Below are positions 1,936-30,518 of a stretch of DNA of 64,000 nt, in pieces. Source of the stretch: Hyphomicrobiales bacterium. Its GTDB lineage: Bacteria > Pseudomonadota > Alphaproteobacteria > Rhizobiales > Rhizobiaceae. The notes beneath the pieces are model-generated. The model was not told where the DNA came from, made no database searches, and worked only from the letters and a program-made list of their open reading frames with translations. A program made the translations under genes and the position numbers. The stretch spans positions 434,001 through 498,000 of the forward strand of contig UBXV01000007.1 of assembly GCA_900469625.1 (NCBI GenBank). Direction: 5' to 3'. Every line of letters starts with the position of its first letter. Within the stretch, counting starts at the first letter, position 1.

Positions 1936-2505
1936 TCAGCTTCTCCGGGCATCCAGAGCAAGGTTGAGTTCTAGCACATTGACGCGCGGCTCGCCTATGA
2001 TCCCGAAGAGCCGACCTTCGGTTGCCTGCTCGACCAGGCTCGCCACGTCAGCCTCCGGCAGACCACGCACCCTGGCGACACGGGAAACCTGCTCGCGCGC
2101 GAAGTCCGGCGAGATATGCGGATCGAGGCCGGAGCCCGACGCCGTGCCACCATCGGCGGCGATTTCGCCGGTGACGCCGCTGGCGCGCAGCTTCTCGACG
2201 TCGGCGGCAACCCGGTCCTTCAACTTGGCCGAGGTCGGGCCGAGGTTGGAGCCGGACGAGCCGCCGGCATTGTAGGCCTCGGGACCGGTCGCGGATGGGC
2301 GCGGCCAGAAATATTTGTCGGAGGCAAAATTCTGTCCGATCAGATCGGAGCCGACGACGGTGCCGTCGATCGTGATCAGGCTGCCGTTGGCCTGCGCGGG
2401 CATCAGCGCCTGCGCAGCACCTGTGATCGCGAAGGGATAGGCGAGGCCGGTGATCGCGGTCAGAAGCAGCGCCATGACGATTGCGGGGCGAAGTTGGTTC
2501 AACAT
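1936..2505 (-). CDS. kdpC: Potassium-transporting ATPase subunit KdpC
   Basis: Small accessory subunit of the high-affinity K+ P-type ATPase KdpFABC. The 189 residues fit the family (about 190). One N-terminal membrane helix (about residues 9-30, [20 protein letters not shown]) is followed by a periplasmic domain containing [17 protein letters not shown] and [10 protein letters not shown], all characteristic KdpC motifs. The ATG is two bases past the kdpB stop, so translation is probably coupled. KdpC is thought to stabilise the complex and assist ATP or K+ binding; that is family knowledge, not visible here. Confidence 0.97.
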
Positions 2506-2507
2506 GA

Positions 2508-4634
2508 TTACACCAGATTGAGAGCGGAGACGACGATGTCGACGAGCTTGATGCCGGCAAAGGGCAGGATCAGGCCACCGAGACCATAGACCAGCAGGTT
2601 GCGGCGCAGCAGCGCCGCGGCACCGACAGGGCGGTACTTGACGCCCTTCAGGGCCAGCGGAATGAGCGCCACGATGATCAGCGCGTTGAAGATCACCGCC
2701 GACAGGATTGCCGACTGCGGCGACGTCAGGCCCATGATGTTGAGGGCTGCGAGCGCCGGATAGGTGGTGATGAACAGCGCCGGGATGATGGCGAAGTATT
2801 TCGCCACGTCGTTGGCGATCGAGAAGGTCGTCAGCGAGCCGCGCGTCATCAGGAGCTGCTTGCCGATCTCGACGATCTCGATGAGCTTGGTCGGGCTGGA
2901 ATCGAGGTCGACCATGTTGGCGGCCTCGCGCGCCGCCTGGGTGCCGGTCTGCATCGCCACGCCGACATCGGCCTGGGCAAGCGCCGGCGCGTCATTGGTG
3001 CCGTCGCCGCACATGGCGATCAACCGGCCGCCCTCTTGTTCCTTGCGGATGTAGCCGAGCTTGTCTTCCGGCGTCGCCTCGGCGAGGAAGTCGTCGACCC
3101 CGGCCTCCGACGCGATCGCGGCCGCCGTCACCGGGTTGTCGCCGGTCACCATCACGGTGCGGATGCCCATGGCGCGCAGCGCTGCGAAGCGCTCCTTGAT
3201 GCCGGGCTTGACCACGTCCTTCAGATGGATGACGCCGAGCAGGCGGTTGCCGTCGGCGACGGCCAGCGGCGTACCACCGGTGCGCGCGACCTGGTCGACA
3301 GCGCGGCGGAACTCGGCCGGCACGTTCTCGTCGCGAACGCCCGCAAACTTCAGGATCGAATCCACCGCCCCCTTGCGCAGACGGCGGCCGGCGAAATCGA
3401 CGCCCGACAGGCGCGTTTCGGCAGCAAAGGGCACGACGGCGTCGATCGTGAGGGCGCCTGACTGAACTGCACCGCCGCCGACCGCCAGGGCAACGACCTC
3501 GCGGCCCGCCTGCTTGCCGGACGATGGCAGGGACACGGCCGGCGTCTGGCGACCGAACTCGCCGGTGGCAAGGGCCGCGATCGAGCGGCCTTCCGGCGTC
3601 TCGTCGGCAAGGCTTGCAAGCAGCGCCGCATCGGCAAGCTCGACATCGGTCACGCCGGGAACCGGCAGGAAGTTGGCGGCCATGCGGTTGCCGAAGGTGA
3701 TGGTGCCGGTCTTGTCGAGCAGCAGCGTATCGACGTCACCCGCGGCTTCGACAGCGCGGCCGGATGTGGCGATCACGTTGAAGCGCACCAGCCGGTCCAT
3801 GCCGGCGATACCGATGGCCGACAGGAGGCCGCCGATCGTGGTCGGGATCAGGGTGACGAGCAGGGCTGCCAGAACCGTGACCGACAGGACCGTGCCGGAA
3901 TAGCCGGCCAGACCCCAGAGGGTGACAACGGCAACCAGGAACACCAGTGTCAGGCCCGAAAGCAGGATCGACAGCGCGATCTCGTTCGGGGTCTTCTGGC
4001 GCTGCGCGCCTTCGATGAGCGCGATCATGCGATCGACGAAGGTATCGCCAGGGGCGGTGCCGATGCGCACCTTGATCCAGTCGGACAGCACCTGGGTGCC
4101 ACCGGTGACGGCAGAGCGGTCTCCGCCGGATTCACGGATGACGGGCGCGGATTCGCCGGTGATCGCGCTTTCGTTGACCGAGGCGACACCCTCGACGACG
4201 TCGCCGTCGCCGGGGATCAGTTCGCCGGCCTCGACCAGCACGAGGTCACCGACCTTCAGCGAGGTGGCGGCGATCGTCTGCGTCTCGCGACCTTCGAGCG
4301 AGACCAGCTTGCGGGCCATCAGTTCCGACTTGGTGCGACGCAGGCTGTCGGCCTGCGCCTTGCCGCGCCCTTCGGCGACGGCTTCGGCGAAGGTGGCAAA
4401 CAGCACCGTGAACCACAGCCAGGCGGCGATCTGGCCGGAAAATAGCGGGCTTGCGGTGCCGGTTGCCAGATCGCGGATGAAGAAGACCGTGACCATGGCT
4501 GCCACGACCTCGGTGACGAAGATCACCGGGTTGCGGATGAGCTGGCGCGGGTCGAGCTTGGTGAATGCGGCCTTGAAGGCCGGCAGGATGATCGCCGGAT
4601 CGAGAAGACCAGGGGCGACGGGTTTGGAAGACAT
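2508..4634 (-). CDS. kdpB: Potassium-transporting ATPase catalytic subunit KdpB
   Basis: P-type ATPase subunit that hydrolyses ATP to drive K+ uptake through KdpA. The phosphorylated aspartate is in LLLDKTGT at residue 307, the same number as in E. coli KdpB. TGES (actuator domain), [11 protein letters not shown] and [16 protein letters not shown] (P-domain hinge) are all present. Membrane segments lie at both ends and in the middle. At 708 residues it is slightly longer than the usual 680-690, from a short N-terminal extension and a longer loop around residues 350-410. The gene is 11 bases after kdpA. No key residue is missing. Confidence 0.98.
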
Positions 4635-4645
4635 GATCTGTTCCT

Positions 4646-6355
4646 TCAGAAGGTCTGGCCCGAGAGCATGGCGAACTGCTCAACGATGGGACCGAGCGCG
4701 AGGGCCGGGAAATATTGCAAGCCCCCGAGGATGAGGATGATGCCGATGAGCAGGCCGACGAAGAGCGGCGTGTGCGTCGGGAAAGTTCCCTTGGATGCCG
4801 GGTGGCGCGTCTTGGCGGCAAGCGAGCCCGCAATGGCAAGCACCGGCACCGCATAGGCGAAGCGGCCGAGCAGCATCGCAAAGCCGAGCGTGGTGTTGTA
4901 CCAGGGCGTGTTGGCAGAAAGGCCGCCGAATGCCGAGCCGTTGTTGCCGGTTGCCGAAGTATAGGCATAGAGGATTTCCGACAGGCCATGCGGGCCCGAC
5001 GTGCCGATGCTGGCAACGGCCGAGGGCATGACGGCCGATATCGCGGTGAAGCCGAGGATCGAGGCCGGCAGGATGAGGATTGCCAGCATGGCGTATTTCA
5101 TCTCGCGGCCCTCGATCTTCTTGCCGAGCAGTTCCGGCGTGCGTCCGACCATCAGGCCGGCGACGAAGACGGAGAGGATCGCAAAGACGACCATGCCGTA
5201 GAGGCCGGAGCCGACGCCGCCGGGCAAGACTTCGCCGAGCTGGATCAATAGCATCGGCACCAGTCCGCCGATCCCGGTGAAGGAACCATGCATGCCGTTG
5301 ACGGCACCGGTGGAGATACCGGTGGTGACGCCGGCATAGGCCGCCGACATCGCCTGGCCGAAGCGGACTTCCTTGCCTTCCATGTTGCCGAGCGAGGCTT
5401 CGAGGCCGAGGCCGTGCAGGATCGGATTGCCGTAGCTTTCCGCCCAGTAGATGACGCCGATGCCGGCAATCAACAAAGTCGCCATCGCGGCGATGAACGC
5501 CCAGCCCTGGCGGCGGTCACCGACCATCTGCCCGAAGGTATAGACCAGCGCCGAGGTGATCGAAAGCATCGCGAAGATCGACAGGTAGTTGCTGAGCGCG
5601 CTCGGGTTTTCGAACGGGTGCGCCGCATTGGCGTTGAAGAAGCCGCCGCCATTGGTGCCGAGCTGCTTGATCGCTTCCTGGCTTGCGACCGGACCGAGCG
5701 CGATCGTCTGCTGCACGCCTTCAAGCGTGGTGGCGCTGACCGAGGCATGGAAGGTCTGCGGCATGCCCATCGCCACGAAGGCGAGAGCGACGATGACGGC
5801 CAGCGGCAGCAGCACATAGAGGGTCGAGCGGGTCAGGTCGACCCAGAAGTTGCCGAGCGTCGACGCGCCGGAGCGAGCGAAGGCGCGGGTGACGGCAAGC
5901 GCAATCGCAATGCCGGTCGCCGCCGAAACGAAGTTCTGCACCGTGAGGCCAGCCATCTGGCTGAAATGGCTCATGGTGGTCTCGCCGCCATAGGACTGCC
6001 AGTTGGTGTTGGTCAGGAAGCTGACGGCCGTGTTGAAGGCAAGGTCCGCCGGCACGTCGGCAAAGCCTTGCGGGTTCAGCGGCAGCGAGCCCTGAAAGCG
6101 AAGGATGGCATAAAGGAGCACGAAGCCGGCGGCGCTGAAGGCCAGCATCGACAGCGTATAGGCAAGCCAGCCCTGCTCCTTCCTGTCATCGACGCCGGCA
6201 GCCAGATAGAGGCCACGCTCGACGGGCCGCAGAACCGGGGAGAGGAAATTGCGTTCGCCCGAAAAGACCCTGGCCATGTAGAGGCCCAGCGGCTTGATCG
6301 CGAGGAAGACGGCGAGAAAGAGGAGGCCGATCTGTAGCCACCCGACAATAGACAT
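4646..6355 (-). CDS. kdpA: Potassium-transporting ATPase K+-binding subunit KdpA
   Basis: Membrane subunit forming the K+ selectivity pathway of KdpFABC; a member of the superfamily of K+ transporters with four pore loops. About ten hydrophobic helices, with the filter-like segments [22 protein letters not shown] and [11 protein letters not shown] visible. I use the ATG at 6355 ([10 protein letters not shown], 569 residues) because GGAG lies eight bases upstream and KdpA proteins normally begin here; a longer in-frame reading to 6406 runs into an intergenic palindrome and is unlikely. Follows kdpF after a 71-base gap. Confidence 0.97.
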
Positions 6356-25145: not shown

Positions 25146-25850
25146 ATGAACGAAATCAACAGGAGCCCAGCCTTCTGGCGCTCATTTTCGATCTTCGAAG
25201 GATTCGACAAAAAGACGATCGAGGACCTTGCCGAGATCGCGACCTATCGCAAGTGGCCGGCCGGCACGGTGATCTTCCAGCGTGGCGACGAAGGCAACTA
25301 TATGATCGTCGTCGTATCGGGCCGCATCAAGCTGTCATTGATCACGCCGCAGGGCCGCGAGTTGATGCTGCGCCAGCATGAGGCCGGCGCGATCTTCGGC
25401 GAGATGGCGGTGCTCGACGGCCAGGCGCGCTCGGCTGACGCCACGGCGCAGACCGCTGCCGAAGGCTACGTCATCGGCAAGAGGGCGTTTCTCGACATGG
25501 TGACCACAAGGCCGGCGGCGGCCGAATCCGTCGTGCGCTTTCTCTGCGCGCAGTTGCGCGACACGACCGAGCGGCTGGAAACCATCGCGCTCTACGATCT
25601 CAATGCCCGCGTCGCCCGCTTCTTCCTGGCCACGCTCCGGCAGATCCACGGCAACGAACTTCCCGAAAGCGCCAACCTCAGGCTGACGATGAGCCAGACG
25701 GATATCGCCGGCGTGCTCGGCGCCAGCCGCCCCAAGGTCAACCGGGCGATCCTGTGGCTCGAGGAAAGCGGCGCCATCAAGCGGATGGATGGCATCATCG
25801 CCTGCAAGGTCGGCAAGCTTCTAAGTATCGCCGACCCGGAAGAGGATTAG
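25146..25850 (+). CDS. clr: Clr-like cAMP receptor, Crp/Fnr family
   Basis: 234-residue cyclic-nucleotide-responsive activator. The phosphate-binding cassette FGEMAVLDGQARSA (residues 84-97) keeps the glutamate (86), arginine (95) and serine (96) that bind cAMP in E. coli CRP. A dimerisation helix (120-145) follows, then the winged helix-turn-helix MSQTDIAGVLGASRPKVNRAI (182-202). No Fnr-type cysteine cluster. Gene order with a CHASE2 cyclase, five bases downstream, and spdA matches the S. meliloti Clr locus. A matching Clr box occurs 2.8 kb downstream. Confidence 0.92.
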   Translation: MNEINRSPAFWRSFSIFEGFDKKTIEDLAEIATYRKWPAGTVIFQRGDEGNYMIVVVSGRIKLSLITPQGRELMLRQHEAGAIFGEMAVLDGQARSADATAQTAAEGYVIGKRAFLDMVTTRPAAAESVVRFLCAQLRDTTERLETIALYDLNARVARFFLATLRQIHGNELPESANLRLTMSQTDIAGVLGASRPKVNRAILWLEESGAIKRMDGIIACKVGKLLSIADPEED

Positions 25851-25855
25851 GTGGC

Positions 25856-27730
25856 ATGACCACGCCCCCCCGCCGGCACTTTCGTTTCACACCGCTCGCC
25901 GGCGGGATCCTGACGAGCCTGATCGTCGCACTCGCCCTTTATTTCTTCGCCGAGCCCGTGTTCGAAACGCAGCGCGAACTGTTCTTTGACAGCCTCACCC
26001 AATGGGTGCCCTCCCCCAAGTCGCCCGATATCGTCGTCGTCGATATCGACCGGGCGGCCTATCAAGGCAGGCCTGATGGAGACTGGGACAGGCAGGCAAC
26101 CGCCGAGCTTCTGTCAGCGCTGACCGCCTCCGGCGCCCGGGTCGTCGCCGTCGACTTCGTCTTCAGCTCCGACTGCACGGCGGAGCGTCCAGGCAATGAA
26201 GCGCTGTCGCAGGCGCTATCGAAAGTCCCGGTGGTCCTCGGCTTTCTCATCGCCGATACCCGGCAGGAACAGCCTCGCCCGGTCCCGCCACTGGCGCTCA
26301 GCCGACCCTTCGCGGCACCCGAGCTCTGGTTCCTCGACGGCGCGGAAACCTCCTGCCCCGCCTTCATGGACAACGCCAAGGCGGCAGCTGCGTCGTTCCT
26401 CGTCGGCGACGAGGATGCGCGCATCCGCCGCGTACAAGCCTACGCGGTTCTGGGCGAGGAAGCCTACCCGACGCTCGGCATCGAAGCGACGCGGCTGATG
26501 GCCGGCACCGGCACGCCGATCCTCGGGGGAGAGCCGGCGTGGCTGCGCCTCGACGGGCAGGTCATCACGCTCGACGACACCGGCAGCCTGCGCTTCGTCG
26601 CGAGCGATCCCGAGCGGATCGCGGCGCGGACGATCTCGGCCGCCGATGTGCTGACAGGCAAAGCCGGCAAGGACAGGCTTGCCGCCAAGCTCGTCTTCAT
26701 CGGCAGCAGCCTGCCCAATCTCGGCGGCTTGAGGCCGAGCGCCTCCATGCCGCTCGAGCCCTCGGTGCAGATCCACGCCGATATCGCCAATGCCATTGCC
26801 ACCGGCTTCATTCCGCGGCGCGATGGGCGGCTTTTCGTAATCGAGGCGCTGTTTTCGCTCGCGGCCGGCATTGCTGCCGCCTATGGCGCCGCAAGGCTCC
26901 GGCCGCTGATGTCGGCGGCCCTCGGCATCATCGCGATTGCCGCCGTCGTCGCGGCAACAGCCGCGATCTATCGCAGCAGCGGCTGGCTCACGGATGCGGT
27001 CAGCATTTCGGTCGCGATTGCCGCGGTGCTGGCGGTTACCAGCACGCTGCAATTCGCCCACATCAGGCGAGCGGAGGCGACGGCGCGGGAAAAATTCTCG
27101 CAATATCTGCCGCAATCCGTCGTCGCCCGCTACATCGACAATCCCGGCGCGGCCCGGGTCGCGGGCGAGGAGCGGGCCGTGACGGCGCTCTTCACCGATA
27201 TCGAGAGCTTCTCGACCCTGTCGCAAAAGCTCGGGCCCCGCGACTTGATCGCCCTGCTCGACATCTACTTCACCGAGGTCAATGCATTGGTGGCGCAGTA
27301 TGGCGGCATGGTCGACAAGGTGGTGGGCGATGCGGTGCACGCCTTCTTCAACGCGCCGGAAGACCTCGACGACCACGTGGACAAGGCGATCGAATGCGCA
27401 AGAGCGATCCACGCGCTGACGGAGGAAATGCGCCGGAGACCTCAGTTTGCGAGCCGGGATTTCGGGCGCACGCGCATCGGCATCGAAACCGGCCAGGCGG
27501 TGGTTGGCGAAGTCGGCGCCGGCGGCAAGCTCGACTACACCGCCCATGGCGACGCCATCAACCTGGCGGCGCGGCTGCAGGAGGCCAACAAGTTTCTGGG
27601 CACCGCCATCTGCGTCGGCCCGGCGGCGGCGGCGCAAAGCCGGCAGCGGCTGCGCTCACTCGGCAATCAGGAGATCCGCGGCTTTGCCACGATGGAGCTC
27701 TTTACCGTGGCCAATCCCGAGCAGGTCTAG
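25856..27730 (+). CDS. cyaD1: CHASE2-domain class III adenylate cyclase, CyaD1-like
   Basis: Receptor-type adenylate cyclase of 624 residues. One helix (about 13-33) leads into a periplasmic CHASE2 sensor domain (35-320), then three helices (325-400) and a cytoplasmic cyclase domain (435-620). Catalytic residues look complete: metal aspartates D448 (FTDIESFS) and D492 (VGDAVHAFF), adenine-specifying K488 and D560 (KLDYTAHGD), and N569/R573 in AINLAARL. The K/D pair argues for ATP rather than GTP. It begins five bases after clr, so sensor-synthase and receptor are co-expressed. In S. meliloti the counterpart responds to plant signals in nodules. Confidence 0.93.
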   Translation: MTTPPRRHFRFTPLAGGILTSLIVALALYFFAEPVFETQRELFFDSLTQWVPSPKSPDIVVVDIDRAAYQGRPDGDWDRQATAELLSALTASGARVVAVDFVFSSDCTAERPGNEALSQALSKVPVVLGFLIADTRQEQPRPVPPLALSRPFAAPELWFLDGAETSCPAFMDNAKAAAASFLVGDEDARIRRVQAYAVLGEEAYPTLGIEATRLMAGTGTPILGGEPAWLRLDGQVITLDDTGSLRFVASDPERIAARTISAADVLTGKAGKDRLAAKLVFIGSSLPNLGGLRPSASMPLEPSVQIHADIANAIATGFIPRRDGRLFVIEALFSLAAGIAAAYGAARLRPLMSAALGIIAIAAVVAATAAIYRSSGWLTDAVSISVAIAAVLAVTSTLQFAHIRRAEATAREKFSQYLPQSVVARYIDNPGAARVAGEERAVTALFTDIESFSTLSQKLGPRDLIALLDIYFTEVNALVAQYGGMVDKVVGDAVHAFFNAPEDLDDHVDKAIECARAIHALTEEMRRRPQFASRDFGRTRIGIETGQAVVGEVGAGGKLDYTAHGDAINLAARLQEANKFLGTAICVGPAAAAQSRQRLRSLGNQEIRGFATMELFTVANPEQV

Positions 27731-27839
27731 AGTGCCGGCGCGAGGGCAAGATGCCAGTGGCTTGAGACCGACATCTACGACAGATTGATCATTGAGCCGA
27801 ACCGCGTGCCTTGCCGTGTGCCCGACGTGGGACGTCAGG

Positions 27840-28475
27840 TCAGAGGCCGACGCTGGCATAGGCTTCGCGGATGCGCGCCTGCCCCCAGTTGACCGGCGTG
27901 CTCGGTGCGTCGCCGCGCTGCTTGAACTCGACGCCCTGCCCGGCCGCGACGATTTCGGTTACGCCGCCGGCTGCAACCGCGACGCTGCCATGCTCGACAA
28001 AAACCGCGAAGGCGGTCTTGCTCGGACCGCAGAAGAACTTGGTGCCGCGCACGCCGATCATGCCGAAGGCCGTGCGGACGGCAACATCGACCTTCGGCAG
28101 CCCTTCGGGACGATCGAACACCATCCGGCCGGTGCCAAGCTCCAGCGTGCCGCCCTGTTCGGCAATGAACCGGTCGACGAGCAGGTCGGTTTCGGCCCCG
28201 AGAAGCACGCGGGTGTCAGCGCCAAGCGCCAGCGTTGCGAAGCTTTCGGCCTCGGTGCGAACATGGTCTTTGTCGAAGATCTGCGCGTCGACGGCCAGAG
28301 CCTCTTCCTCTTCGGCCTGTCGGCGGCGCACGTCGCCGCGGATCTCGGTGGCCTTGCCGACCGCGGGGCTTGCCAGCGTTCGTGCCACGCCGCCGCCGAT
28401 CGTCGCGAGCAGCAAGCCGCCAACGACCACACGTCGCTTCACCAGCATCCGCCGCATCGGCTCCCGGTCCATCAT
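27840..28475 (-). CDS. FecR-domain protein, membrane anchored
   Basis: 211 residues: a basic N-terminus with one hydrophobic segment (VVVGGLLLATIGGGVARTLAS, about 15-35) and then a FecR domain (TEIRGDVRRR..., TRVLLGAETDLLVDRF, GTGRMVFDRP, VRTAFGMIGVRGTKFF). FecR proteins are periplasmic; some work as anti-sigma factors, many have other roles. No sigma gene adjoins. It diverges from the Sel1 gene, whose promoter bears a Clr box, so this gene might share cAMP control. Two ATGs abut; the first is used. Confidence 0.85.
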   Translation of the reverse strand: MMDREPMRRMLVKRRVVVGGLLLATIGGGVARTLASPAVGKATEIRGDVRRRQAEEEEALAVDAQIFDKDHVRTEAESFATLALGADTRVLLGAETDLLVDRFIAEQGGTLELGTGRMVFDRPEGLPKVDVAVRTAFGMIGVRGTKFFCGPSKTAFAVFVEHGSVAVAAGGVTEIVAAGQGVEFKQRGDAPSTPVNWGQARIREAYASVGL

Positions 28476-28624
28476 GGTCCTTCTCCCTGTTCGACGTTTT
28501 GCGTGCCCGGCCTTTATAGAGGATATCCCCGCTATCGACGGAAACAAGTCAGATGCAATTGGCCGGATGCGCATTGATGCCCTGCCGCACCCTTGCCAGT
28601 TCGCCAGAAGCCCCGCAATCGGGC

Positions 28625-28640
28625 TGTTCCCGCCGGAACA
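28625..28640. promoter_or_regulatory. Clr (cAMP receptor) box
   Basis: TGTTCCCGCCGGAACA fits the remembered Clr consensus HGTYHCNNNNGRWACA at every position, and the palindrome extends by one base each side (CTGTTCC/GGAACAG). It lies 51 bases before the Sel1-protein ATG, suiting activation, and 149 bases from the FecR gene start on the other side. Confidence 0.82.
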
Positions 28641-28691
28641 GGCAGCGCCGAGACCTCAGGCTAGGTTGGCTTCAGGAGACGGGAGACCATC

Positions 28692-29552
28692 ATGAAAACC
28701 CAGCGCAAAGCCAGAATTCGCATCTTCAACGCCATCAGCCTCGCCATCGTCAGCTTCCTGGCGCTGGCGGCAATCGCGCTTCCCCCGGCGCGTGCAGCCG
28801 ATCTTTCCGCGGCCGACATCTGCGACCGCGAGGCGGGCAGCATCTTCGACCTGCAGCGCAACCAGAGTTACCCGGCTGTTGCGACCGAAGACCTGAAAAT
28901 CGGCATTGCGCTTTCGGCCTGCCGCGAAGCCTACAACCAGCATGCCGGCCCGCGCGCCGAGTTCCAGCTGGCGCGAGTGCTCGACAAGGCCGGCCAGAAG
29001 ATCCAGTCGCTGCGCATCCTCGGCGAGGCCGCCGACCATGGCCACGCGCTGGCAATGACCAATTATGCCGTCCTTATCGGCGAACAGGGCGACGTTGCGA
29101 CCGAATTCACGCTCAATCAGAAGGCCGCAGCCGCCGGCAATATCCTTGCTGCCTACAATCTCGGCGTCGCCTATCGCGACGGCATGGGGACATCCGCAAA
29201 CGGTGCCCTCGCGATCGAATGGTTCGAGCGCGCCTCGCTTGCCGGCGACGATGTCGCCGCCTTCAACCTCGCGGTGATCCTGGATGAAGGCAAGCTGGTG
29301 CCGGAAGACAATGCCCGGGCCGCCCGCTTCTATCGCCTCGCTGTCGAGCGCGGCAATGTCGATGCCATGGTCAATCTCGGCCTGATGCTGGAAACCGGCG
29401 AAGGCGTGACCAAGGACCTGCCGGCCGCCCGTGCTGTCTTCCGCAAGGCCGCAGCCGAAGGCGACGACTATGCTGAGCGCAAGTTCGCCGAGCTGAGCGC
29501 CACCGACAATTTCGAGACGGCCATGCTCGACAAGACAAGCCGCATCAAGTGA
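28692..29552 (+). CDS. Secreted Sel1-repeat protein, probable Clr target
   Basis: 286-residue exported protein. A long signal peptide (residues 1-36, cleavage after PPARA|AD) is followed by a short cysteine-containing N-terminal domain and four to five Sel1/TPR-like helical repeats (about 80-270), each with the pattern A..LG.....G....D...A..W/F...A..G, for instance YNLGVAYRDGMG and VNLGLMLETGEG. These repeats bind partner proteins. By position it corresponds to the S. meliloti gene I remember as a cAMP-Clr target (SMc02178); function unknown. A good Clr box precedes it. Confidence 0.88.
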   Translation: MKTQRKARIRIFNAISLAIVSFLALAAIALPPARAADLSAADICDREAGSIFDLQRNQSYPAVATEDLKIGIALSACREAYNQHAGPRAEFQLARVLDKAGQKIQSLRILGEAADHGHALAMTNYAVLIGEQGDVATEFTLNQKAAAAGNILAAYNLGVAYRDGMGTSANGALAIEWFERASLAGDDVAAFNLAVILDEGKLVPEDNARAARFYRLAVERGNVDAMVNLGLMLETGEGVTKDLPAARAVFRKAAAEGDDYAERKFAELSATDNFETAMLDKTSRIK

Positions 29553-29711
29553 ACCATGCCGGCCCTCACCGGCCGATCTTGAGGGGCCGGCCGGTCTTGC
29601 GCCCGCAAATGTGCCGGCCACCATCGGCAAATCCCACCCAAAGATGCAGCTTGACGTGCAGCAGGTCGCACTACAGCTTGAGCGGGAACACAGCCCTTTC
29701 CCGGACATGCG

Positions 29712-30518
29712 ATGACCAAGCTGATTATCTTTACCGACCTGCACATGGTGCCCGAGGGCACGACCATCATCGGCCTCGACCCCTATCAGCGCCTGGCCAA
29801 CGGCATCGCCCATGTGAACCGCTACCATGCGGATGCCGACCGGGTGATCTTCACCGGCGATCTTGCGCACTACGCCGATCGCGCCTCCTATGAACGGCTG
29901 AAGGGCCTGATCGACCAGGTGGTCCCGCCCGTCGCGATCACCGTCGGCAACCACGACCGGCGCGAGGTCTTTCTCGATGTCTTTACCGACGCGGTGACCG
30001 ACGACGACGGCTTCGTGCAGCAGGTGATCGACTTTGGCGATTGCCGCGCAATCCTGCTCGACACGCTGTTTGCGCCGCCCTACGACTATCCCAACAGCCA
30101 TGCCGGCCTTCTCTGCCAGAAGCGCCTTGCCTGGCTCGACCGGCAACTGGCGGAAGCCGGCGACAGGCCGGTGCTGATCTTCATGCACCACCCGCCGCAC
30201 GCGACCGGTTTTTCCGGCATGGACATGATCCGCCTGGTCAACGAGGTGGAATTCTACGCGCTGGTGAAGAAGCACGGCAATGTGCGCCACATCTTTGCCG
30301 GCCACGTGCACCGCACGATCAGCGGCTCGAGCCGCGGCATCCCCTTCTCCATCTTCAAGAGCCCGGTGCACCAGCAACCGATGCCGTTCGATGCGCCCGA
30401 TGCCTCGCTCTCCGTCGACGAGCCGGCGGCCTACGGCATCGCGTTGGTGACGAAGGATGGCGTGCTCGTTCACACCGAGGATTATGAAATCGCCCGCCGG
30501 GACGCCGCCTTCGCCTGA
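29712..30518 (+). CDS. spdA: SpdA-like 3',5'-cAMP phosphodiesterase
   Basis: 268-residue metallophosphoesterase of the class III phosphodiesterase group. Metal ligands appear in order: D9 and H11 (FTDLH), D50 (FTGD), N80/H81 (VGNHDRR), the histidine in FMHHPPH, and GHVHR. No signal peptide or helix, so it acts in the cytoplasm. As in S. meliloti it lies downstream of clr-cyaD1, completing synthesis, sensing and hydrolysis of cAMP. 2',3'-cyclic substrates are also reported for SpdA, so its true substrate is not settled by sequence. Confidence 0.9.
   Translation: MTKLIIFTDLHMVPEGTTIIGLDPYQRLANGIAHVNRYHADADRVIFTGDLAHYADRASYERLKGLIDQVVPPVAITVGNHDRREVFLDVFTDAVTDDDGFVQQVIDFGDCRAILLDTLFAPPYDYPNSHAGLLCQKRLAWLDRQLAEAGDRPVLIFMHHPPHATGFSGMDMIRLVNEVEFYALVKKHGNVRHIFAGHVHRTISGSSRGIPFSIFKSPVHQQPMPFDAPDASLSVDEPAAYGIALVTKDGVLVHTEDYEIARRDAAFA

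Follow-up and report, generated by a model that had tools for sequence, protein, structure and literature searches.

A full-length Sel1-repeat gene behind a conserved Clr box in an Ensifer ortholog of the Sinorhizobium meliloti clr locus

The cyclic-nucleotide receptor Clr of Sinorhizobium meliloti binds the promoter of smc02178 together with 3′,5′-cyclic AMP (3′,5′-cAMP), for which electrophoretic mobility shift and reporter data have been published (PMC4222275). The neighborhood is reported to be conserved in sequenced strains of S. meliloti, S. saheli, and S. fredii (PMC4222275), and mutants of smc02177 and smc02178 are described as hyper-infecting Medicago (PMC4222275, PMC5498481). S. meliloti is described as having three CHASE2 cyclases, and most of the SMc02178 protein was shown to be periplasmic by authors who could draw no hint of structure or function from it. 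Here we describe this circuit in a new host, within a 64,000-nucleotide stretch of Ensifer DNA, called the window, which comprises positions 434001–498000 of its source contig (contig C50 of genome G000; L- and G-numbers are the locus and genome labels of our survey). The locus in the window is the Ensifer ortholog of clr-cyaD1-smc02177-smc02178-spdA (smc02175–02179), in which we take smc02175 to be clr and smc02176 to be cyaD1.

Open reading frames (ORFs) and Pfam domains confirm five genes in the order clr, CHASE2 adenylate cyclase gene, divergent FecR gene, Sel1 gene, and spdA, as an earlier sequence-only reading of the window had proposed. The gene clr (25146–25850, forward strand) encodes a Crp-family cyclic-nucleotide receptor with cNMP_binding and HTH_Crp_2 domains. 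The cyaD1-type cyclase gene (25856–27730, forward strand) starts 5 nucleotides behind clr, and its product carries both CHASE2 and Guanylate_cyc domains and is therefore classed as a class III CHASE2 adenylate cyclase. The FecR-domain gene (27840–28475, reverse strand), the ortholog of smc02177, is oriented back toward the cyclase gene. It is followed by a gene for a secreted Sel1-repeat protein (28692–29552, forward strand), a full-length ortholog at the position of smc02178, and by spdA (29712–30518, forward strand), which encodes a Metallophos-domain protein.

The orthology of the locus is established by the match of its Clr to the solved structure of S. meliloti Clr (7PZA) and by the recurrence of the gene order in loci L145 and L146, where Clr shares 99.6% and 99.1% of its residues with 7PZA. 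Judged by this identity, the genomes of L145 and L146 appear to be S. meliloti or its nearest kin. The window Clr matches 7PZA over its full length (residues 1–234, E-value 4e-123), and the helix-turn-helix stretch ASRPKVNRAI is identical in the two proteins. It keeps the nucleotide-pocket residues G85, E86, R95, and S96 named in PMC10127613; by similarity and pocket residues, the protein is a Clr of the S. meliloti type. The window genome groups with Ensifer: the Sel1 protein is present in all 16 genomes searched of its genus, including the window genome itself, and its nearest named counterparts, at 88–90%, are from Sinorhizobium sp. A49, Ensifer sp. LC163, E. adhaerens, and E. oleiphilus. 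The window and S. meliloti loci share gene content, gene order, a single Clr box that separates the FecR gene from the divergent gene at the smc02178 position, and an adjoining spdA. They differ in the protein at the smc02178 position, which has 157 residues and no Pfam hit in L145 and 286 residues with Sel1 repeats in the window. The genomes differ as well: in that of the window, a single CHASE2 protein was found, nothing matched an NsrA-type protein, and no nodC match passed the cut-off. The sequence-only reading held the output of this circuit to be little described; that was wrong, because the locus, its box, the divergent FecR gene, and the mutant phenotypes had already been published.

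In the circuit as we picture it, a periplasmic cue would act through the CHASE2 domain of the cyclase, as its family suggests, and the cAMP produced would load Clr, which would then bind the box. The cyaD1-type cyclase is the sole CHASE2 protein found in a search of the window genome (one match). We regard as reasonably probable the account as a whole, in which an S. meliloti-type locus has a Sel1 gene activated by Clr as a class II promoter, a FecR protein that is a partner of the cyclase, a SpdA that acts on 2′,3′-cyclic nucleotides, and a role in infection control that was acquired later.

The Clr box TGTTCCCGCCGGAACA (28625–28640) matches on both strands and is the only exact occurrence of the consensus HGTYHCNNNNGRWACA in the 64 kb, so the perfect-consensus box claimed upstream of the Sel1 gene is indeed there. 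Matches with at most one mismatch are not over-represented in the window (3, versus 6.9 expected from shuffles). The genome-wide consensus scan suggested in the sequence-only reading gave 53 strand hits versus 55 for a reversed control, and it was rejected as proof of regulation. Since the consensus shows no excess in the genome, the pattern alone proves nothing, and the case is carried by conservation. We surveyed 59 distinct rhizobial Sel1 loci, from sets of 40 and 20 that have one record in common (L156 = L059); L156 and five weak non-rhizobial loci (L067–L071) were excluded from the counts. An exact consensus site is located upstream of the Sel1 ortholog in 50 of the 50 loci with clr in view and in none of the 8 distinct loci without clr in view, so that the comparison with relatives proposed for the site at 28625 clearly shows the box to be more than chance. 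The exact site is also present in L051, the contig of which ends inside the cyclase gene, before clr; L063, a short contig without clr in view, has a one-mismatch site 75 nucleotides before Sel1. The box core begins 65–68 nucleotides before the Sel1 ATG in most loci and between −49 and −141 in the exceptions. For comparison, the consensus occurs three times across 442 kb of sequence around CHASE2 genes of other families.

The sequence between the box and the Sel1 gene contains a second conserved element. The motif TANNNT begins 20–22 nucleotides after the box in 49 of 51 promoters (the window, together with 34 and 16 loci from the two surveys; the box of L159 is not included) and in 24 of 26 representatives that remain after removing promoters at least 80% alike. 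The distance is exactly 21 nucleotides in 77% of the 26 representatives. When the downstream sequences are shuffled, TANNNT falls at 20–22 nucleotides in 0.5 of the 26 on average and in 5 at most. The window has the predicted −10 element TAGGTT at 28662–28667 (forward strand), followed by GGGAGA and ATG. The predicted start near 28674 puts the center of the box at −41.5, which is the class II position; with the box placed in this way before a fixed −10 element, class II activation of the Sel1 gene by Clr would be expected.

Two points weigh against the class II assignment. The 26 representatives are still related to each other, so that the figure of 24 overstates the independent support, and the published start of smc02178, which is based on RNA sequencing, lies 61.5 base pairs from the box center and was called class I (PMC4222275), which contradicts class II. 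A class I promoter with the box at −61.5 would take that start at face value. However, the box core of L145 and L146 begins 66 and 65 nucleotides before the ATG of the 157-residue ORF, and a distance of +61.5 from the box center lands on or beside this start codon, after the purine-rich stretch that precedes it; the objection becomes weaker if the real start codon differs. L145 and L146 also keep TANNNT at the spacing that corresponds to −41.5. We therefore consider class I unlikely and, from the position of the start codon, class II the likelier architecture of the Sel1-side promoter.

The side of the box that faces the FecR gene is organized differently. The likely start of the FecR gene is 28475, after GGGAGAAGGACC, a small correction to the sequence-only reading. 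Class II spacing on the FecR-facing strand occurs in 1 of the 26 representatives, and no fixed distance to a −10 element was found toward FecR over 25 loci (the best distance was shared by 3 of 25). A σ70-like promoter, CTTGTT ... TATCCT in the window (28520–28548, reverse strand), is assigned by the recurrence of a CTTG...TATCC motif before FecR in 22 of 50 loci from the Ensifer/Sinorhizobium clades; five further loci have TATCC without the CTTG part. The distance of this promoter from the box varies from 77.5 to 119.5 across the 22 loci and is 119.5 in the window, measured from the predicted start, near 28513, to the box center. With the box far upstream of an independent promoter, Clr may boost FecR expression from a distance while Clr-independent expression remains. 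A separate σ70-like promoter fits the published behavior of smc02177, which is Clr-dependent ex planta and essentially Clr-independent in mature nodules (PMC5498481); smc02177 is reported to be activated in S. meliloti and not in E. coli (PMC10127613). Control of the FecR gene from the same box, which had been suggested from the sequence, is probable in view of the ex planta dependence of smc02177 and of the boxes at 10 of 20 FecR loci that lack a neighboring Sel1 gene.

The product of 28692–29552 belongs to the Sel1 repeat proteins. It has 286 residues with three Pfam Sel1 stretches and a signal peptide read from its sequence, and its AlphaFold model (predicted local distance difference test score, pLDDT, 88) is a helical solenoid that matches solved Sel1 proteins. 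The protein would serve as a periplasmic solenoid scaffold produced as an output of the circuit. In L145 and L146, the ortholog has 157 residues and can be aligned to the N-terminal portion of the window protein, and Pfam gave no hit when run on the L145 sequence; forms of intermediate length (185–205 residues) occur in L062 and L141–L144. Because the 157-residue ortholog aligns with the N-terminus of a Sel1-repeat protein, the smc02178-type protein appears to be a shortened member of the Sel1 proteins. Among nine genomes with nodC, a short form is found in one (L062) and the other eight have full-length proteins; thus, the shortening does not track nodulation. ExoR is a periplasmic Sel1 regulator. 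Kinship with it was considered and is unsupported, as a 268-residue ORF of the window genome in L084, which we presume to be ExoR, aligns to the Sel1 protein at an E-value of 0.016 only.

The FecR protein has 211 residues. An N-terminal arginine pair and a hydrophobic segment can be read from its sequence, and the protein is presumably exported. Its structural model (pLDDT 78) matches the cell-surface signaling domain of PupR (6ovk, E-value 1.6e-4), and 53 residues are invariant across 24 sequences. FecR proteins of anti-sigma systems have an N-terminal cytoplasmic anti-sigma domain. Pfam identified the FecR domain and no anti-sigma domain in the 211 residues, and the protein was not classed as an anti-sigma factor; partner genes fecI and fecA were not searched for.

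The FecR gene is linked to the cyclase gene and to Clr boxes also where the Sel1 gene is missing. Among the 58 distinct Sel1 loci that remain when L063, a contig of 3430 bases, is set aside, CyaD1 and FecR are both present in 50 and both absent from the stretch in 8. Twenty FecR loci have no Sel1 ortholog alongside; they come from 18 genomes without a Sel1 match and from G315 and G335, in which the Sel1 matches are weak and located elsewhere in the genome. A CyaD1-like match is present in the stretch in 13 of these 20 loci (in L232, only the catalytic domain), and an exact Clr box is located 113–224 nucleotides upstream of the FecR match in 10. One or the other is found in 19 of the 20, and the remaining locus, L231, ends at a contig edge. 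In L222 and L230, the box is positioned between FecR and a divergent spdA. The idea that FecR follows the cyclase whereas the box follows clr was abandoned, since half of the Sel1-less FecR loci have a Clr box.

The linkage extends beyond the family. We picked by hand 40 CHASE2 loci representing 36 further families of the class, with the best-scoring places first and on longer contigs. A FecR ORF, identified with a profile of the FecR domain only, lies within about 5 kb in 16 of them. In four of the 16, FecR is directly upstream of CHASE2 on the same strand and within 51 nucleotides; Pfam assigned FecR to all three of the 16 that were submitted to it. About 0.6 FecR ORFs would be expected in sequence of this extent from the density in the window genome (9 per 6.5 Mb), a rough estimate because the density is that of another genome.

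A related arrangement is formed by NsrA and CyaK. The gene nsrA is adjacent to cyaK. NsrA has been described as an outer-membrane barrel protein that is required together with CyaK. In relatives, a second CHASE2 cyclase is preceded by a protein of about 1210–1235 residues, which we call NsrA-type after the published description and not from a comparison with S. meliloti sequences. Two NsrA-type proteins were submitted to Pfam, which found a FecR domain and TPR repeats in both. The C-terminal region of one such protein scores as a TonB-dependent barrel, and a second gave no family. The FecR and TPR domains that this protein joins beside a CHASE2 cyclase resemble the FecR and Sel1 genes of the window locus; the NsrA-type protein is a single chain, whereas FecR and Sel1 are encoded separately at the window locus, where no barrel protein was found. 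CHASE2-cyclase clusters have also been described in Campylobacterota (PMC9239204), in which FecR is part of an outer-membrane protein, and the available text of that study mentions neither Clr nor a Clr box.

The genomic linkage and the FecR–TPR fusion seen in NsrA-type proteins hint at joint action of FecR, possibly together with Sel1, and the CHASE2 sensor, and the FecR protein is most likely a periplasmic partner of CHASE2 cyclases that may contact them directly. Several observations weigh against such a partnership. In 24 of the 40 sampled CHASE2 loci from other families, the profile found no FecR ORF; thus, FecR is not obligatory for CHASE2. A box precedes FecR without a CyaD1-like gene in the stretch in 6 of the 20 Sel1-less loci, which fits an output as well as a partner. 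Among 394 genomes of the family, 37 have FecR and Sel1, 18 FecR only, and 20 Sel1 only, with weak Sel1 matches included; therefore, the two do not strictly co-occur. Finally, smc02177 and smc02178 are reported to be dispensable for the perception of the plant signal (PMC5498481).

It is a serious possibility, albeit short of an even chance, that FecR and Sel1 are pure Clr outputs, induced to alter the cell surface as envelope or secreted proteins and taking no part in sensing. The boxes that FecR retains away from any adjoining CyaD1-like gene and the continued signal perception of the S. meliloti mutants would be explained in this way, and 10 of 20 confirmed Clr targets are reported to have a signal peptide (PMC10127613). 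However, FecR is located beside a CyaD1-like gene with neither clr nor a box in the stretch in 8 of the 20 loci (L223, L224, L232, and L237–L241; L232 has the catalytic domain only, and the gap in L240 is about 1 kb), and pure outputs leave the FecR–TPR fusion beside CHASE2 cyclases unexplained. The perception test also used shoot extract, and the shoot cue (signal 1) has been assigned to CyaK, whereas another cue was assigned to CyaD1 and CyaD2. A bolder form of the partnership, which we advance tentatively and hold to be rather doubtful, is that FecR and Sel1 together make up, in split form, the periplasmic half of a CHASE2-cyclase receptor, of which the NsrA-type FecR–TPR–barrel protein is the fused form, and that the pathway controlling infection of Medicago was recruited from it later. 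With both genes on a Clr box, such a circuit would raise the level of its own sensor parts by positive feedback in a bacterium that lives free.

The sequence-only reading of SpdA as the phosphodiesterase of the circuit is not supported. SpdA has a Metallophos domain with intact DLH, GNHD, and GHVH motifs, and it passes the NCBIfam model NF050112 for 2′,3′ SpdA (500.1 bits, cut-off 400); by this cut-off, it is an equivalog of S. meliloti SpdA. It fails the model PRK11148 for 3′,5′-cAMP phosphodiesterase (79.1 bits, cut-off 225). S. meliloti SpdA is reported to have no detectable 3′,5′-cAMP activity and to be expressed independently of clr (PMC4222275). The window protein would clear 2′,3′-cyclic nucleotides and would not end the 3′,5′-cAMP signal. 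That spdA adjoins the circuit and keeps its metallophosphoesterase motifs could be taken to mean that it closes the loop as a 3′,5′-cAMP phosphodiesterase; however, given the two model scores and the reported inactivity of the S. meliloti enzyme, this is highly improbable.

The distribution of the locus bears on whether its role is symbiotic. The nodC search covered 32 genomes of the set formed by the 40 rhizobial loci and the window genome (L038, L039, L040, L042, L049, L052, L056, L060, and L063 lay outside it). A nodC match over the cut-off is found in nine of the 32, all of which are among the 28 with the locus; it is absent from 19 of these 28, mostly drafts, with completeness given for the window genome only. 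The window genome is 99.75% complete and has no nodC or nifH match over the cut-off. Nor did it give a match to the barrel region of an NsrA-type protein, which 25 of the 32 genomes possess; G001, G002, G004, and G007 likewise have the locus and no barrel match. Infection control, which the sequence-only reading had carried over from S. meliloti, thus does not suit a genome with none of these matches and with a single CHASE2 protein. What has been reported of clr, smc02177, and smc02178 mutants on Medicago (PMC4222275, PMC5498481) could indicate that the circuit is dedicated to symbiosis and serves to control the infection of legumes, which we consider very unlikely in view of the genomes that carry the locus without a nodC match over the cut-off, incomplete as some of the drafts may be, and of the nearly complete window genome. 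Because the circuit occurs in nodulating and apparently non-nodulating Rhizobiaceae, infection control is probably a later use of it, and the distribution suggests that its original job predates root symbiosis.

The present comparison adds to the published description a class II spacing that is conserved, a probable shortening of smc02178, the linkage of FecR with CHASE2 and Clr, and the whole locus in the absence of nodulation genes. The literature searched, which excluded most subscription papers and is therefore weak evidence, contained no account of smc02178 as a Sel1 protein, of a class II promoter, or of the locus in non-nodulators. These additions bear on the way in which signals reach CHASE2 cyclases through the envelope and on the functions of smc02177 and smc02178: they assign smc02178 to a likely family, put FecR forward as a partner of the cyclase, and revise the promoter class in a way that can be tested. 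In an Ensifer that has a single CHASE2 cyclase and no nodC match over the cut-off, the circuit could be studied with neither a plant nor redundant CHASE2 cyclases.

Variants of the locus are found among the relatives. In L148 and L159, the box and Sel1 come directly after clr, and the stretch contains neither cyaD1 nor FecR. L155 contains homologs of CyaD1, FecR, and Sel1 together (2333–5928) with neither clr nor a box in the stretch, and these genes are apparently outside Clr control. An extra exact Clr box is positioned between a DoxX gene and clr in some other genera (L147 at 10071, L152 at 1195, L153 at 1197, L228 at 8537, and L234 at 9122), a position that would be in keeping with clr regulating itself or with DoxX being controlled; the window has no Clr site within one mismatch between its DoxX gene and clr.

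The window genome contains 44 distinct consensus sites, which were placed against genes predicted by a simple codon-usage caller, and 5 of them, including the site in the window, have TANNNT at class II spacing on either side. Small secreted proteins and cyaF2 are reported among the Clr targets of S. meliloti (PMC10127613). One site of the window genome (L014, 1501) lies about 135 nucleotides upstream of a class III cyclase-like gene. Two others (L005, 1501; L211, 2457) lie about 90 nucleotides upstream of genes for similar small proteins of 58 and 85 residues with signal-peptide-like starts, which are reminiscent of the small secreted Clr targets of S. meliloti.

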